A DNA stretch of 64,000 bases from the NCBI GenBank assembly GCA_016288205.1, contig JAEEYO010000070.1, positions 1 to 64,000 of the forward strand. The letters run 5' to 3'. Source of the DNA: Treponema sp. (GTDB taxonomy: Bacteria; Spirochaetota; Spirochaetia; Treponematales; Treponemataceae). Positions within the stretch are counted from its first letter, which is position 1. Each line of letters starts with the position of its first letter. The notes under the pieces are model-generated. The model had not been told where the DNA came from. It did no database searches and saw nothing but the letters and a program-made list of their open reading frames with translations. A program made the translations under genes and the position numbers. Below, one piece after another: positions 16,194 to 24,783 of the stretch.

Positions 16194-18752
16194 TCAGATT
16201 TTTTCCTCAATAAGGATTTTCTCTTCCTTTTCAGAATCAGAACCTATTTCCGCAACATGGGACGCACGCCGGGATTTTTTAAACGAAAGCTTCAGCTCCT
16301 TACCGTCAGAGTCAATCACGACCTGCTCCGAGTCACCGCGTTTGCCGGAAAGCAGAAGATTCGCAAGCGCATCCTCCACATCATGCTGAATAAGACGGCG
16401 CATCGGTCTTGCCCCCATTGAAGGCTCGTATCCATTTTCAATCATAAACTGTCTTGCCTTGGGTTTAAGCACAACGGAAAGTCCCTGATCAGAAATCCGT
16501 GAAGCAAGTTCCGCCACCTGCAAATCGACAATCTTTGAAAGCACGTCGCGGTCAAGGGCATGGAACACAACCACATCATCAATGCGGTTCAAAAGCTCCG
16601 GCGAAAGAATTCTCTTAAGTTCCTCCATTGCGCTCGCCTTCATCTCCTCATAAGGCAGAAGTCCCTCGGCTGCGGTTGAAAATCCAAGTCTTCCGTCCGA
16701 TGTAATTCTGTTTGATCCTGCATTGCTCGTAAAAATCACGACCGTGTTTCTGAAATTAACCGTGCGTCCCTGGCCGTCAGTCAGCTCACCTTCCTCAAGA
16801 ATCTGGAGCATGAGATTGTAGATGTTCGGATCGGCTTTTTCAATCTCGTCAAAAAGAACAACCGAATATGGATGCTCCAAAACTTTTTTCGTAAGCTTAC
16901 CGCCGTCCTCATATCCAATATATCCCGGGGAAGTACCTGTCAATCCTGTGGCAGAAGAACGCTCGCTGTACTCACTCATGTTAAAGCGAAGAAGCGCGTC
17001 CTCAGTGCCGAAGAGAAATTTCGCAAGTGATTTCGCAAGTTGAGTTTTTCCGACTCCCGTAGGTCCAAGGAAGAAGAATGATCCGACCGGTCTCTTTTGT
17101 GAGGAAACGCCCGCACGATGCCTTTTCACGGCAGAGCAGATTGCCCGTACCGCTTCCGTCTGTCCCACCACTTCCTCAGAAAGGACTTTTTCCATGTCCA
17201 AAAGTTTTTTCGCCTCGCCGTTGTCAAGCCTTTCGGCAGGGATTCCGGTCATTCCGCTTATGACGGCAAGCACATCGTCCACCGTAACATGGGTTCTGTC
17301 CGCTCCGTCCTTACCCTTGAGCGAGAGATTTATTTCATCAAGCCTGTGCCTGAGTTCCTGCACTTTATCGCGCACCATAGCGGCCCGCTCATAATCCTGA
17401 TTTTCAACGAGAGACCTTTTTTCGGCGAGCAGAGAATCTATTGTTCTTTCAATTTCATCAAGCTCAGGAGGTCTCACCTCGGAATTGATTTTTTTCGCAG
17501 CACCGGCCTCATCAAGAATGTCAAAGGCTTTGTCGGGAAGACATCTGTCGGTTATGTAGCGACGGCTGCACTTGACGATGGACTCAATGGCCTCATCCTC
17601 ATAATACACATGATGGAAAGACTCATAGCGGTACTTGAGTCCACGGAGCATCTCTATCGTATCCGCATCTGACGGCTCCTCCACCCTGATCATCTGGAAG
17701 CGACGGGTAAGCGCTGCGTCACGCTCAAGTCTGTTGCGGTATTCCTTTGTGGTGGTTGCACCGATAACCTGAATGTCACCTCTGCTCAAAGCCGGCTTCA
17801 TCATGTTGCTCGCTTCCATAGTTCCCTCAGGTCCACCGGCTCCGATTATCGTGTGAATCTCATCGATGAAAAGAATGACATCAGGATTTTCCTTCACTTC
17901 CTTGAGCATCCTCTTCATGCGCTCCTCAAACTCTCCTCGGTATTTTGTTCCCGCAATCATTCCGGACAAATCCAAAAGCAGGATTCTCTTTTTCAAAAGC
18001 TCCCTTGGAACATCTCCAGCCGCAATGTGCTGAGCAAGTCCCTCGACTACGGCAGTTTTTCCGACTCCGGGCTCACCAACAAGTACAGGATTATTTTTCG
18101 TCCTACGGCTGAGGGTCTGAATCACCCTTGCAATTTCGGCATCGCGACCGACAACAGTATCAGTCTCGTCATTTCTTGCGGCCTCGGTCAAATCACGGCA
18201 GAACTGCTGAAGAATTCCACCCTGAGTCTTGTTGCGTCTTGAAGCGGCAGAGTCAAATGAGTTGCTTGCAAAAACAGGCTCCATATTCGACGTGAGTTTT
18301 GCGGATGACGGAACCTTTTTCTCCACTTCGGCAACAAACTGACGCGCCTGATCCAAAGAAATGCGTGCCTTGATGAAAAAATTCTGAATCACGGATTTTT
18401 CTTCCCTGAGTGCGGCCAAAAGCAGATGCTCGGTTCCAATGTAATCGCAGCGAAGGATTCTAGCCTCCACCGCCGCCGCATCAAGAAGATTTCGGAGTCT
18501 GTTTGAATGAGGAATCTCGGTAAGCTCAAGCGACTGCTGTCTTGACGGCAAACTCTGCTCAATGGTAGTCTGGAGCATGAGAACGTTTATCTTCATGGCT
18601 TTAAGCGCAATGTATCCGAGTCCGTCGGCAGATTTAAGGAGCGCAAGAAGCAAATGCTCTATGTCAAGAACCTTGCTCCTGAAACTGTAAGCCTCCTCCG
18701 GCGCAAGCACAGTCAAAAGCCGCTGAACTCTAGGTGAAAGTAATAACATCAA
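16194..18752 (-). CDS. clpC: ATP-dependent Clp protease ATP-binding subunit ClpC
   Basis: 852 aa; two Clp_N repeats (DIEHLLLALLK, GTEHLLLAALRE), GEPGVGKTAVVEGLA, GPTGVGKTQLAKSLA, UVR-like middle domain, LGF loop (DGRLGFSTA). Confidence 0.95.
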   Translation of the reverse strand: MMLLLSPRVQRLLTVLAPEEAYSFRSKVLDIEHLLLALLKSADGLGYIALKAMKINVLMLQTTIEQSLPSRQQSLELTEIPHSNRLRNLLDAAAVEARILRCDYIGTEHLLLAALREEKSVIQNFFIKARISLDQARQFVAEVEKKVPSSAKLTSNMEPVFASNSFDSAASRRNKTQGGILQQFCRDLTEAARNDETDTVVGRDAEIARVIQTLSRRTKNNPVLVGEPGVGKTAVVEGLAQHIAAGDVPRELLKKRILLLDLSGMIAGTKYRGEFEERMKRMLKEVKENPDVILFIDEIHTIIGAGGPEGTMEASNMMKPALSRGDIQVIGATTTKEYRNRLERDAALTRRFQMIRVEEPSDADTIEMLRGLKYRYESFHHVYYEDEAIESIVKCSRRYITDRCLPDKAFDILDEAGAAKKINSEVRPPELDEIERTIDSLLAEKRSLVENQDYERAAMVRDKVQELRHRLDEINLSLKGKDGADRTHVTVDDVLAVISGMTGIPAERLDNGEAKKLLDMEKVLSEEVVGQTEAVRAICSAVKRHRAGVSSQKRPVGSFFFLGPTGVGKTQLAKSLAKFLFGTEDALLRFNMSEYSERSSATGLTGTSPGYIGYEDGGKLTKKVLEHPYSVVLFDEIEKADPNIYNLMLQILEEGELTDGQGRTVNFRNTVVIFTSNAGSNRITSDGRLGFSTAAEGLLPYEEMKASAMEELKRILSPELLNRIDDVVVFHALDRDVLSKIVDLQVAELASRISDQGLSVVLKPKARQFMIENGYEPSMGARPMRRLIQHDVEDALANLLLSGKRGDSEQVVIDSDGKELKLSFKKSRRASHVAEIGSDSEKEEKILIEEKI

Positions 18753-18766
18753 AAACCTCCTTATCC

Positions 18767-19882
18767 TCAGTTAATCCGCACGTCCTTAAACGCATCCTGC
18801 AGGATTAATGCCCTGAGACGCTGATTCCGTTTCACCACGTCCCGCTTTATGTCATCTTCAAAATTGAAAGCTCCGTTCCTCAGCACGTACTCCATGTGTC
18901 CGTCCTGAATTCTGTAAAGAAGCGAATGGAGCCTGGGGTCATCGGTACCGGAAAGAATTCCCATATCAAGTCCCCATTTGATTCCGCTCACTATTGAAAT
19001 GGCCTCACGCAAAGGCATAAAGAGCGACGATCGTGAAAGGGTCAGAGCCCTGTATACATAATTCTTGATTGTGGAAGGGATTGAGTCAAGACATTCCTGA
19101 CGCGAGTTCCTTTCCATTTCCTTGAGCTTGATTCCCGCTGAGGCAATTGAAGTCAGCTGGTCAATCTGTGAGCCCTCCATGCAATTCACTGTCGCAAGGT
19201 CATAATAGCAGCCGAGAGAGCTTGCAGGCCAATCCGTGCCCGAAACGAAATCGGAGCCGCCTGAACCATAGCTTGCAGAGAAAGTCAGACCGTTGGAATT
19301 GTACTCCTCCGCAATGTCCTTGATTTTTCCAAGAGCCGCGAGCGACGGAAGATGAAGCCTGAGACCAAGATGCATTCCGCTGCCGGCATCAAGCACATCC
19401 GAAGTCAAATAACCGAAATCCCTCGAAGCCGCGAACTGCATTTTTTTCTGCAATCCCGAATCCAGATTTCCCGAAAGACTCATCACAGAATCAAAATCCA
19501 GCCCCGGAGCATAAGCGCAGATTTTCAGGTGATCCCCAAGATTTACCGTACAGGATATTTTTCCGTCCATGCGCAGAACAATCCCGGTTCCCTCCGTGTT
19601 AATGGCGTCTGGAAGCATGCCCCGCTCCTGCAAGATTTTTGTTCCAAGCGGATCCAGATTGTTGATTGGCAGGGACTGGAATTCATCACCGGCTCCAAGG
19701 TCCAAAAAGGCGGAGAAAACAATGGACAGAATACGCTTGCACTCATTTTCCTGAAGCTGTGACGGAAACGGAAAGCTCGAAAGATTTCTGGACATGACAA
19801 TCCTGGAAGAGAGCACAACATCGCTGTCGTTTCCATTGTATGTGTACCAGGCTTCCCCGGTCTGCTCCTGCTTGATCTCCAT
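18767..19882 (-). CDS. mcsB: McsB-like ATP:guanido phosphotransferase family protein (predicted catalytically degenerate)
   Basis: Start reassigned to ATG at 19882, preceded by GGAGGACTAAC. DVVLSSRIVMSRNLSSFPFPSQ and RDFGYLTS...LRLHLPSLAALGKI match McsB; catalytic CPTN replaced by DVLD. Confidence 0.85.
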   Translation of the reverse strand: MEIKQEQTGEAWYTYNGNDSDVVLSSRIVMSRNLSSFPFPSQLQENECKRILSIVFSAFLDLGAGDEFQSLPINNLDPLGTKILQERGMLPDAINTEGTGIVLRMDGKISCTVNLGDHLKICAYAPGLDFDSVMSLSGNLDSGLQKKMQFAASRDFGYLTSDVLDAGSGMHLGLRLHLPSLAALGKIKDIAEEYNSNGLTFSASYGSGGSDFVSGTDWPASSLGCYYDLATVNCMEGSQIDQLTSIASAGIKLKEMERNSRQECLDSIPSTIKNYVYRALTLSRSSLFMPLREAISIVSGIKWGLDMGILSGTDDPRLHSLLYRIQDGHMEYVLRNGAFNFEDDIKRDVVKRNQRLRALILQDAFKDVRIN

Positions 19883-19883
19883 G

Positions 19884-20408
19884 TTAGTCCTCCGATTTTT
19901 CGGGTCCTGATGCAAAATTTCTATCAAGTGCCTTCAAATAATCTCGGTAAACCGCGGCCTTTTCATAATTTTCCTGTGCGACCGCCTCATCAAGCTTTGT
20001 CTTAAGCTCAACCCTGTCGTTCAAGACTGAATGTGCGTTTCCCAATCTCTCGGGAACAGAACCCGTATAGGCTCCCTGCACACCATGACGTTCCAAAAAT
20101 TTCCTTATATCAGCCTTAAAAACTGAATAACACTCAGGACATCCAGCCTTTCCGGTCCTCCTGATTTCCGCACCCGAAGTACCGCAGACGGGGCAGGTTT
20201 TCATTCCTTCCGCTTTTATGGCAGATTTTTCCACCGCGAGTTCCTTGAACAAATCCACGATGGAAGCCTCAATGCTTTTTGGGTCCGAGCTGATTCCGCG
20301 GGCCACGGCACAGTCCATGCAAATATTGATTTTGCGTCTCTGTCCGTTGGCGCTGAGCTGCTCCAAAAAAATCACCGCTTCCCTTTCATGGCAAAAATCA
20401 CAAACCAT
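19884..20408 (-). CDS. mcsA: McsA-like zinc-binding protein with UVR domain
   Basis: CxxC pairs MVCDFCHERE, CMDCA, CPVCG, CPECY; UVR motif LKTKLDEAVAQENYEKAAVYRDYLKAL. Confidence 0.9.
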   Translation of the reverse strand: MVCDFCHEREAVIFLEQLSANGQRRKINICMDCAVARGISSDPKSIEASIVDLFKELAVEKSAIKAEGMKTCPVCGTSGAEIRRTGKAGCPECYSVFKADIRKFLERHGVQGAYTGSVPERLGNAHSVLNDRVELKTKLDEAVAQENYEKAAVYRDYLKALDRNFASGPEKSED

Positions 20409-20420
20409 CTAAAACCTCAT

Positions 20421-21770
20421 TTACATCTTACGCAAAGTATCAAGCGGTTTCTCCCTGCCAGCCTTAGCAGCCGGAATGATTGAAACCACAAGCGAAAGTA
20501 CCAGAGTTCCCGCAGTAATCAACAGAAGATGCCCGAAAGGAACCGAAACCGGTATGTCCTGCAAATAATAAGCCGGATCAAGGAGTTTGACCGAACTGAA
20601 TGACTCCAGCTCCCCCCTACCTATAAGATACACGAATTTCGCACAAATGTTAACCATCTTTTCCATAATATTTATAAGTGGGTTGATATTTACCGCCGCA
20701 AGCAAACCAAGGGGAATTCCGATCAAAGTACCGCCCGCACCGGCAGCAAACCCCACGAGAATGAAGCTCATCTTGATTCCTTCCTCCGACGCTCCCATGC
20801 TCTTCAAAATGGCAATCTCACGCCGTCTCTCCATGACCACCATGACCAGCGCGGAACTGATGTTGACCGAAGCGACAAGCACAATCAGCAGCATGATTAA
20901 AAGCAGGAGGATTTTTGTGGACGCAAAGTTCTCGTACTCAGCCGCATTCAGCTCATTCCAAGTGTAGACCCTCGACTGTTCCACCGCAGGATACGAGTCC
21001 ATGCCGCGAATGTTCCGTGACACACCGGCTTTTATGCTCATAAGCGACGGAGCAAAAGGATCCTCCGTAACCAGCCCGAAGATGAACTGTGAGGATTTAA
21101 TGGAAAGAAAATCATAGCCTGTCTCAAGCGGAATAAAAACCCAGAGCGCATCCAGCTCCTGATATCCCGATGAGACTATGCCCTCCACGTTGAACTCACG
21201 CATCTTGGGAACCATCGTCTCACCAATCTTGTTGATTGAAATCAGGCTCACCTTGTCTCCCGCATGAACGCCGAGCGACTGGGCAATTTTCTCGCAAAGC
21301 ACCGCGTCCCTCTCTCCCTCAAGCGAAACCGTACCCTCCACAACTTTGAAAAGCGACGAAAAAGATTTCACATCCGAAAAAATATTTTTATGCATCGCAC
21401 GAACAGTGGCTCCCGTCCTGATTCCGTTTCCAGCGGCAAGAGCCATTCCCTGCATCTCAGGTATGACCTCAAGCACTCCGTTCACATCAGCAAGACGCTC
21501 GGAAAATGCCTCCATGTTCTCAAGCGACTCAATCTCCTCCGAATACGAGCTCACACGTACCTGCAAGTCCTGGGAGGAAAGACCTATCATGCGTCCCGTA
21601 ATTCCGTCAATCATTCCCTGGCTGATTACAAGGACAGCGACAAGTGGCACGAGACTGATTCCGATACATGCCATGGCACCGATGAGACTTCTTTTACCGT
21701 TGCTACGTTCCGCACCAGGCCTTGAGAAAAAAATGCGGGCCGCATACAGAACGCTGGATTTAAAAGTCAT
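20421..21770 (-). CDS. ABC transporter permease, LolC/E (FtsX-like) family
   Basis: 449 aa; N-terminal TM, periplasmic domain, C-terminal FtsX region (VMVVMERRREIAILKSMGASEEGI). Confidence 0.85.
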   Translation of the reverse strand: MTFKSSVLYAARIFFSRPGAERSNGKRSLIGAMACIGISLVPLVAVLVISQGMIDGITGRMIGLSSQDLQVRVSSYSEEIESLENMEAFSERLADVNGVLEVIPEMQGMALAAGNGIRTGATVRAMHKNIFSDVKSFSSLFKVVEGTVSLEGERDAVLCEKIAQSLGVHAGDKVSLISINKIGETMVPKMREFNVEGIVSSGYQELDALWVFIPLETGYDFLSIKSSQFIFGLVTEDPFAPSLMSIKAGVSRNIRGMDSYPAVEQSRVYTWNELNAAEYENFASTKILLLLIMLLIVLVASVNISSALVMVVMERRREIAILKSMGASEEGIKMSFILVGFAAGAGGTLIGIPLGLLAAVNINPLINIMEKMVNICAKFVYLIGRGELESFSSVKLLDPAYYLQDIPVSVPFGHLLLITAGTLVLSLVVSIIPAAKAGREKPLDTLRKM

Positions 21771-22483
21771 TGCTTACCTTCCTCCGTCAACGCGCCGTCC
21801 TTTATGAAAAAACGGACATTTCCTTTTTGCGCCAGATTCATGTCGTGGGTCACTAAAATCAGGGTCTTTTGATAGCGGTCTGCCATGGAAAAAAGCAGGT
21901 CCCCGATCAGCACGGCATTCGCTGGGTCAAGATTTCCCGTCGGCTCATCGGCAAGAATCAGCTCTGGATCATTCACCAAGGAGCGGGCAACGGCGACCCT
22001 CTGTCTTTCACCTCCCGAAAGCTGCGACGGAAGATGCGTCATCCTGTCCTCAAGTCCCACGTCACAAAGAAGCGAGCGGGCCTTTTCCATCGCCGTTTTT
22101 TTCGGAATGCCAGCCATATAAGCCGGGAGGAAAACATTCTCAAGCGCAGTAAAATCCTTGAGCAGATAGTGAAACTGAAACACGAGGCCGAGAAAGTGAC
22201 TTCTGTAATCCGTAAGCTCGTTCTCTTCCATTGAGCTGATAATCTTTCCGTTCACGTCCACTGTACCGGCAGTCGCAACGTCAAGTCCTCCGATTATGTT
22301 CAGCAAGGTTGATTTTCCGCTTCCACTTTTTCCGACGATGACGCACTTGCTTCCCTTGCGAACGTCCATGTCCAGATTTTTCAAAATGGTGAGTTTTTCG
22401 CTGGAAGTCTCGTAAGTTTTTTCCAGTCCCCGGACTCGCACAATCACGTCCTTGCCCGTACTGTTTTCTAAATCAGTCATCAT
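21767..22483 (-). CDS. lolD: Lipoprotein-releasing ABC transporter ATP-binding protein LolD-like
   Basis: [51 protein letters not shown]. Confidence 0.88.
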
Positions 22484-23771
22484 GAAGCACCTCCGCTACC
22501 GTTAAATGCAGTATCTGTCTGCTGGCAGACCAAGCGGCGGCCAGAGAAGAAAAAATTCCGAAGAAAAAAATCGCCATGATTTCAGAGAGAACCATGCGTG
22601 CAGGAATGTTCGCGTAGATTCTGAACATGGGATTTTCCTGGAGCGACGAAATGTTCTCAGGATTTATCGCGGCAATCAGCACATACTGGATGTAATACTG
22701 AGCCTTCGAGAGGAACATAAATACGTGGTCCATGTTCGAGCAGATGAGCAGCCCTAAAAGAAGCCCCGGAACAGCACCGACAATTCCCGTGACAAGTCCC
22801 TTCATTATGAATACCGCCTGCACGTCAGATTTTGTTCCACCCAGTGCGCTAAGGACGGCAATCTCCTCACGACGCTCGTAAACCATACGCCTCATTCCGT
22901 TGTAGATGTTCACCGCGACGACGACAAAAATCAGGAACACCAGAAGCATGAGGATATTTTTTTCAACACGCAGAGCACCGAAGAAAGTCCTGTTGTAGCT
23001 TCTCCAGCTCTCAAACTTCTGCCCCGGAAAAGCTGATTCCAGACGCGAAATCAGAACCGAGTCCTTTCCGCTGTCCTTCATCTTGATTCCCCAGACCTTT
23101 TTTGAGCCGGAGCCGAAATATTTTTGTGCCGCATCAATTCCCACAAACGAGTAAGCCGAGTTGATGTCCGCATAGTTCGAGAAAAAAATTCCCGTCACAA
23201 CGAAACGTCTGTCCTGAGAAATCATCGCAACATCGGAACTTCCGCTCAGAGCAAAAATATTTATCGTGCTGCCGACCCTCGCCCCGATTGTCCTTGCAAG
23301 GTCATTTCCCAGAACAATGCAGTCATCCTCGGAAATGTCGAATTCTCCCGAAATCATCTGCACCTCACGGGCAAACCCCTCGTCGCTCTCCATCACATGA
23401 GGATCAAGGGCACGAACCAGCGCGGCATTCTCACGTCCGTTGGATGCAATCATCAGCCCCTGCGCCTCATAAAACGGAGAGACAGTCAGCACGGATTTCT
23501 CATCCCCGCACCATTTCAAAAAAGCGTCCTCGTCCTGAACATCCGAAGCGCGCACATGATAGCTGGAGATTTCCATTATGGCATCGATGAATTCCATCTG
23601 GAATCCGTTCATCACGCTGATTACAACAATCAATGCCATTACGCCGAATCCGATTCCAAGGCTCGAAAGTGTTGAAGTGACGGCTGACCGACCGCTGCGA
23701 TCCACCTTGCTGAAACGGCTTGAGACAAAACCTATCCACCGGAATGAAGAAAAAAATTTCAACTTACTCAT
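22473..23771 (-). CDS. ABC transporter permease, LolC/E family (second copy)
   Basis: Start reassigned to MSKLKFFSSFRWIGFV; MVYERREEIAVLSALGGTKSDVQAVF. Confidence 0.82.
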   Translation of the reverse strand: MSKLKFFSSFRWIGFVSSRFSKVDRSGRSAVTSTLSSLGIGFGVMALIVVISVMNGFQMEFIDAIMEISSYHVRASDVQDEDAFLKWCGDEKSVLTVSPFYEAQGLMIASNGRENAALVRALDPHVMESDEGFAREVQMISGEFDISEDDCIVLGNDLARTIGARVGSTINIFALSGSSDVAMISQDRRFVVTGIFFSNYADINSAYSFVGIDAAQKYFGSGSKKVWGIKMKDSGKDSVLISRLESAFPGQKFESWRSYNRTFFGALRVEKNILMLLVFLIFVVVAVNIYNGMRRMVYERREEIAVLSALGGTKSDVQAVFIMKGLVTGIVGAVPGLLLGLLICSNMDHVFMFLSKAQYYIQYVLIAAINPENISSLQENPMFRIYANIPARMVLSEIMAIFFFGIFSSLAAAWSASRQILHLTVAEVLHDD

Positions 23772-24783
23772 CAAACGTTCTCCTGCTCTTTTCCTCATCC
23801 CCAAGGAAAAAAACTTCCTCAACAAGCACACCGTTCTTATATCTTGTCTGAACCCTCGCGTCTCCGTCGAAATACAGAGTCTGCTCGTAGTCAAGTTCCG
23901 TCGTGCTGTCCGTCCTCATGCGCAAAACACCGTCCTCGTAAAAATCCACGGAAGGAATCTTGGATGTCACCGAATACGTGTAGATGGATTTCTGCACACG
24001 GCTCGATCCGTCGTCAAAATAAACCGATTCCTCGTCAATCGCAATCCGTCCCTTCGCATCGTAGGTGATTGCGCTCTTGTTTTTCAAATGCCTCTTGACA
24101 TTTCCGGCGTCATCTTTTGAGACAGAATAAAAAAGCACCTGCGTCGGATTTTTTCCAGCAAAGCGAGTCTCACGGTAAGTTCCGTCCAAAAGGAATTCCT
24201 CCGTCCTGAAATTCGGAAGCTTTGATGCCCCGGAATAAGTGTAGCAGGTCCTCACTTTCATCTCGGTGGCGGCAAAAGTCTTGGCGTTCTTCCAAACCGT
24301 CCTCTCAAGAATCCGGTACAAATCATCGTACTCAGTCCTCACAATCTCATCAGCGTTTACCGAAACAGCCGTCTTTTTACCGGACACCGACTCAGGGCCC
24401 ACGAAAAATTCCTCGCCGAATTCAAAAAGACTCAGCCTTTCCTCAGATGAAGTGTAAAGCTCCTCCGCCACATTTCCAAGCCCCAGTCTCTGAGCAATGC
24501 TGGTTCCCTCGCCCTGTGGTCCGAACTCAGGATTCTCAAGCTCGTACAAAAAGCTGGACGGATCCGTCTCAACATCCTCCAAATCCGCGAAGTCCGACAA
24601 ATCCTCAAAATTACCGTCATTCAGCTCCACGGCGGAAAGCATGTCCAAAAGCTCATTGTGCGAAGAAAGCCTCTCTTCGAATGAAACGGAGTCAACCCCC
24701 ATTTTTTTCGCGAGCATATCCTGAGCCGGATCGTAAACCGGAAAGAGAAGATAAAATGCAAGTACGGCGGCGGAAATGTCCAA
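23764..24783 (-). CDS. Hypothetical protein with YwqK/MORN-like strand repeats
   Basis: 339 aa; YDAKGRIAIDEESVYFDDGSSRVQKSIYTY...FYEDGVLRMRTDST...YKNGVLVEEVFF. Confidence 0.55.
   Translation of the reverse strand: MDISAAVLAFYLLFPVYDPAQDMLAKKMGVDSVSFEERLSSHNELLDMLSAVELNDGNFEDLSDFADLEDVETDPSSFLYELENPEFGPQGEGTSIAQRLGLGNVAEELYTSSEERLSLFEFGEEFFVGPESVSGKKTAVSVNADEIVRTEYDDLYRILERTVWKNAKTFAATEMKVRTCYTYSGASKLPNFRTEEFLLDGTYRETRFAGKNPTQVLFYSVSKDDAGNVKRHLKNKSAITYDAKGRIAIDEESVYFDDGSSRVQKSIYTYSVTSKIPSVDFYEDGVLRMRTDSTTELDYEQTLYFDGDARVQTRYKNGVLVEEVFFLGDEEKSRRTFDE

Follow-up and report, generated by a model that had tools for sequence, protein, structure and literature searches.

In Bacillus, McsB tags damaged proteins with phosphate and ClpC is a protein-shredding machine; the Thr in the YwlE loop CTGNTCRSP is a mark of phosphoarginine (pArg) specificity. 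The McsB proteins of Bacillus, Geobacillus and Staphylococcus (6tv6, 6fh1, 8gqd, 8wtb) are the closest described relatives of the gene considered here. In solved complexes a zinc finger of McsA touches the McsB loop that precedes the catalytic Cys (PMC12467219). Bacterial Ser/Thr pseudokinases provide a similar concept, a conserved fold with lost catalysis, in a kinase of different fold and chemistry, and the review describing them mentions McsB only in its reference list (PMC12599244). In the open-access literature, with subscription journals largely outside the scope, no report was found on McsB in Treponema or other spirochetes, or on McsB as a pseudokinase.

The window analysed in this study is a 64,000-nucleotide stretch of a Treponema sp. 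genome (contig JAEEYO010000070.1). It contains an mcsA-mcsB-clpC operon (Table 1), in which the mcsB reading frame, from the ATG at 19882 to the stop at 18767, lies exactly where a preliminary description of this DNA had placed it. The product has in common with the above McsBs its length, the full-length two-domain fold, the gene order and an equivalent of R341. Unlike them, it lacks C167, E121, E212, four of the six assayed arginines and the R337/D338 pair, it scores under the NCBIfam equivalog cut-offs, and no CtsR accompanies it in the genomes searched. Upstream of mcsA, two permease-like genes flank a gene for an ABC ATPase (20421-23894, reverse strand), a set that is LolCDE-like by resemblance only. 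No CIRCE element was found within the window.

Table 1. Coordinates of the mcsA-mcsB-clpC locus and of the diagnostic codons of mcsB (residue equivalents in B. subtilis numbering)
Feature	Position	Strand	Description	Basis
clpC	16194..18749	(-)	Clp_N, two AAA domains, M-domain; RBS AAGGAGG just past mcsB stop	
pseudo-McsB	18767..19882	(-)	full-length McsB homologue, 371 aa, predicted kinase-dead	
mcsA	19884..20408	(-)	two zinc fingers, all eight Cys, UVR motif; stop one base from mcsB start	
lolC (permease-like)	20421..21770	(-)	putative, name by resemblance; adjoins clpC in relatives with mcsAB deleted	
codon V29	19796..19798	(-)	R31, lost	alignment
codon G116	19535..19537	(-)	catalytic E121, lost (NEEDH -> NLGDH)	alignment
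codon K120	19523..19525	(-)	active-site R125	alignment
codon D162	19397..19399	(-)	catalytic C167	alignment
codon H171	19370..19372	(-)	active-site R176	alignment
codon S202	19277..19279	(-)	active-site R207	alignment
codon S207	19262..19264	(-)	lid-loop E212, gap-free placement	alignment
degenerate pArg-receptor motif	18809..18826	(-)	RDxxRA -> N353-Q-R-L-R357-A	alignment

The window protein is the sole ATP:guanido phosphotransferase (PF00217) found by a search of its genome, matching the Pfam model at 81 bits against a cut-off of 22.4. A phmmer search of the PDB matched it to Geobacillus McsB (6fh1) with an E-value of 8.5e-33, which places the homology beyond chance. The NCBIfam McsB models were matched at 154.1 and 164.1 bits, short of their equivalog cut-offs of 500 and 385; McsA likewise matches its NCBIfam model well under the equivalog cut-off. 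An AlphaFold2 model built from 55 sequences reached a mean pLDDT of 89.6 and a pTM of 0.88. It superimposes on the McsB structure 6tv6 with a Z-score of 40.4 across 336 residues, and on B. subtilis and Geobacillus McsB with Z-scores of 39-40 over 336-340 residues at 23-24% identity, in agreement with the preliminary description of a McsB homologue with the overall fold retained. Arginine and creatine kinases (PF00217) have only the catalytic-domain fold in common with it (Z about 20-23, about 230 residues); unlike them, the window protein has a McsB-type C-terminal domain and lacks the catalytic Cys and both catalytic Glu. By this model the McsB fold has outlasted the predicted loss of catalysis.

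Active-site residues were mapped on reference McsB sequences taken from PDB alignments and on multiple alignments, using B. subtilis numbering. The replacements first noticed by eye, namely of the catalytic Cys and N170 by Asp (D162 and D165), of R176 by His, of R125 by Lys and of a further Arg and Glu by Ser (R207 and E212), all recur in these alignments. The gap-free alignment on which they had been based fails at the lid loop, where about 11 residues are inserted; the assignment of E212 to S207, made by gap-free placement, is consequently not certain to the column. The losses of E121 and R31 had not been recognised before. The motif SSRIVMSRN, described as remaining, does retain R29 and R34 but has Val in place of R31, so that R31, R125, R176 and R207, four of the six assayed arginines, are gone. 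In the pArg receptor R337-D338-x-x-R341-A the first two positions are occupied by N353 and Q354, and only R341 survives, as R357; its equivalent is present in every one of the 90 sequences from the genus and the family. An intact catalytic Cys elsewhere would contradict the loss of catalysis, and the alignment places none of the Cys residues of the window protein (48, 111, 122, 225, 234 and 264) at the C167 position. Because a single Arg-to-Lys replacement at R29, R31, R34, R125, R176, R207 or R337 is enough to abolish the activity of B. subtilis McsB (PMC7235348), the loss of four of these arginines makes the window McsB almost certainly a dead kinase.

The distribution of nine key residues was counted in aligned homologues from the genus, family, order, class and the rest of the phylum, with ranks as in the genome collection searched. 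A McsB homologue was found in 76 of 98 same-genus genomes (37 of 46 among those of good quality). Fourteen control genomes, B. subtilis among them, yielded zero McsB matches and were excluded as positive controls. C167 is absent from all 126 sequences up to class level (genus 0/70, family 0/20, order 0/15, class 0/21). It is present in 26 of the 28 best-scoring sequences of a deeper spirochaete clade, which is itself not uniformly canonical, with R207 surviving in 9 of these 28 sequences and E212 in 8; since both residues are mostly missing there, the label "active" in this clade denotes the presence of C167 and E121 only. Elsewhere in the phylum C167 is missing in 18 of 19 sequences, and it may therefore have been lost more than once.

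The Cys-to-Asp change emphasised in the preliminary description is not the conserved trait. At the C167 position, 80 named Treponema/Spirochaetaceae loci carry Ser (43), Asn (17), Ala (8), Ile (3) and Phe (3), with Asp, Thr, Glu, Arg, Gly and Cys occurring once each; the feature that these proteins conserve is the lack of a Cys. The single Cys, in L237, was considered as a counter-example and rejected, that protein lacking E121. The E121 position is likewise variable (V, I, K, G, T and more). Arginine retention in genus and family sequences is 72/90 for R29, 70/90 for R31, 89/90 for R34 and 53/90 for R125, and most relatives show the local pattern D-x-G-[S/T]-G-x-K in place of N-x-G-T-G-x-R. 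On a McsB tree calculated with the nine key columns excluded, one group comprises 86 rows, all inactive (SH-aLRT 89, under the star threshold of the tree program); the active/inactive label needs 6 changes on this tree, 3 of them forced by starred branches. As judged from these alignments, the predicted loss of catalysis is no local accident and spans a class-level group of spirochaetes.

The order mcsA-mcsB-clpC is found in nearly all loci with sufficient flank. Twelve genomes without McsB (10 from the same genus and 2 from the same family, each at least 90% complete) all lack McsA and all have ClpC, and McsA is present in the four McsB-bearing genomes checked (4/4). Three of the twelve (L293, L294 and L299) have empty sites, where clpC comes immediately after a lolC-like gene, with mcsA and mcsB both missing; in the other nine the absence comes from genome search alone. 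The ClpC tree forces at least six changes in the presence or absence of mcsAB. In two other lineages, from other spirochaete families, the McsA zinc fingers and pseudo-McsB are fused as one ORF (L146, 946-2517; L151, 781-2481), and a partial fusion of McsA and pseudo-McsB occurs in L134 (1210-2496). The joint absence in 12 genomes and the fusions in L146 and L151 mean that McsA and pseudo-McsB behave as a unit. Several residues of the stretch before the catalytic-Cys position are nearly invariant in the Treponema set, and the eight zinc-finger Cys of McsA are conserved save in a Treponema subset with an N-terminally short McsA.

In that subset (L086-L101) the N-terminal zinc finger is apparently missing and the second finger and the UVR motif are kept; a gap at the first McsA Cys was seen in 17 of 69 genus sequences. 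In one genome without mcsAB (G038, locus L289), clpC lies beside unrelated genes, one flank being transposase-like; this clpC is 93% identical at the DNA level to its counterpart in G020, a genome that carries mcsAB.

Taken together, these data suggest that McsA and pseudo-McsB probably form a kinase-independent adaptor or regulator of ClpC. The catalytically dead McsB would keep the McsB fold and, most likely, the complex with McsA; this complex would dock on ClpC and, needing no phosphoarginine, serve as its adaptor or allosteric regulator, coupling a signal to ClpC/ClpP activity or substrate delivery. The signal might be redox or metal state, sensed via the zinc fingers of McsA. The McsA complex in this organism and its docking on ClpC are inferred, and its effect may be that of an activator or of a restrainer. 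The likeness to MecA-type adaptors, which activate ClpC without pArg, concerns the proposed mode of action only, and no sequence relation is claimed.

The preliminary description had proposed an adaptor or allosteric partner of ClpC, which is plausible, and the operon is most simply explained by action on ClpC. Indirect support for a ClpC partner comes from the tight linkage to clpC, from the joint retention, loss and fusion with McsA and from the partial function of a C167S mutant. In B. subtilis, mcsB C167S was milder than deletion in its effect on MgsR half-life (12.3 versus 17.7 min; PMC7235348), a comparison that bears on MgsR, the turnover of which required ClpX and not ClpC. For B. subtilis McsB itself, stimulation of ClpC is reported to need the active kinase, and the way in which it activates ClpC is said not to be understood (PMC5506225). 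Either the spirochaete protein therefore works in another way, or the share of McsB action that does not need the kinase has been underestimated. The chances are evenly balanced that the same holds across the class, with McsA/McsB serving as a kinase-free ClpC regulator since an early loss of catalysis and the adaptor function being separable from arginine phosphorylation.

With a natural, ancient and conserved McsB that is predicted to be kinase-dead and is encoded next to mcsA and clpC, the separation of the adaptor role from the kinase role can be put to a direct test. In spirochaetes, the annotation of an mcsAB-clpC operon as a protein arginine kinase does not establish phosphoarginine signalling, and if a kinase-free ClpC regulator is indeed present, neither would the McsAB-ClpC operon be proof of a pArg degradation system.

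The ClpC sequence itself was also considered as an indicator of pArg use and proved uninformative. The pArg-pocket residues E32 and E106, located with a B. subtilis ClpC N-terminal domain reference that, like the YwlE query used below, was an approximate sequence, are kept in nearly all genomes with intact, dead or no McsB; being equally kept where McsAB is missing, they are no evidence for docking on ClpC. The N-terminal domain of ClpC uses these pockets for its own resting state and for MecA (PMC12583610). The M-domain residues of ClpC differ no more than slightly in McsAB-less genomes, a difference confounded by kinship.

Action elsewhere than on ClpC is unlikely, though it is the strongest of the competing explanations: the pseudokinase would regulate, together with McsA, some other target such as a transcription factor, leaving the operon as a historical relic. 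B. subtilis McsB needs no kinase activity to take CtsR off DNA (PMC5506225), and ClpC stays when McsAB is lost. Against this, the order with clpC has been preserved over deep divergence, and CtsR, the known target of this kind, was found in none of the 30 genomes searched. These included genomes with intact McsB, so that the absence of CtsR does not by itself discriminate between the two states of the kinase.

It is improbable that pseudo-McsB is a nucleotide-binding sensor, which would bind ATP or ADP without phosphotransfer and thereby gate the McsA/ClpC complex. The retention of R29, R31, R34 and often R125 in most relatives, with Lys at position 176, would suit such a protein, but the window McsB has itself lost R31, R125, R176 and R207, and the sensor reading hardly applies to it.

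Still less credible is a diverged yet active arginine kinase, catalysing through other residues such as Asp162, Asp165 or His171. The predicted fold is intact, the new pattern around the former Cys occurs in most relatives, and phosphagen kinases tolerate some Cys mutants. However, the two catalytic Glu have disappeared at the same time as the arginines, relatives carry freely varying residues at the E121 and C167 positions, the Arg-to-Lys data of B. subtilis McsB cited above speak against activity, and the YwlE-type signature CTGNTCRSP was not found in the Treponema genomes tested. The ten same-genus matches, low-molecular-weight phosphatases and including that of the window genome, read CHGNICRS(P/T) instead, and the one genome in which CTGNTCRSP was seen, G109, has a McsB of canonical type. 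The remaining matches, from deep genomes whose McsB bears the catalytic residues, read CTGNSCRSQ, which means that the phosphatase does not, as a rule, follow the kinase; the missing YwlE signature is consistent with a dead kinase and does not discriminate when taken alone.

A decaying, functionless pseudogene, for which the lost active-site residues, a split copy in G028 and the independent losses of mcsAB might be invoked, is hardly conceivable given a dN/dS equal to that of clpC, reading frames open in nearly all McsB homologues and 25 invariant columns among 35 diverse Treponemataceae-group sequences. Compared with an 84% identical copy in L202 by the Nei-Gojobori method, dN/dS was 0.077 for mcsB, 0.075 for mcsA and 0.077 for clpC; at a dS of 1.4 these values are only approximate, and the three genes nonetheless agree. 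By this estimate mcsB appears to be under purifying selection equal to that on clpC and not to be a relic. Sequence and model thus point to a kept fold, lost catalysis and a gene under selection, as in other pseudokinases. The designation pseudo-arginine-kinase, already given in the preliminary description, is strongly supported by the disappearance of both catalytic Glu, the Cys and four of six arginines, by purifying selection and by the class-wide loss. In one genome (G028, contig C4, 47791-48859) the match to pseudo-McsB is broken into two neighbouring parts, as expected if the copy is split or frameshifted.
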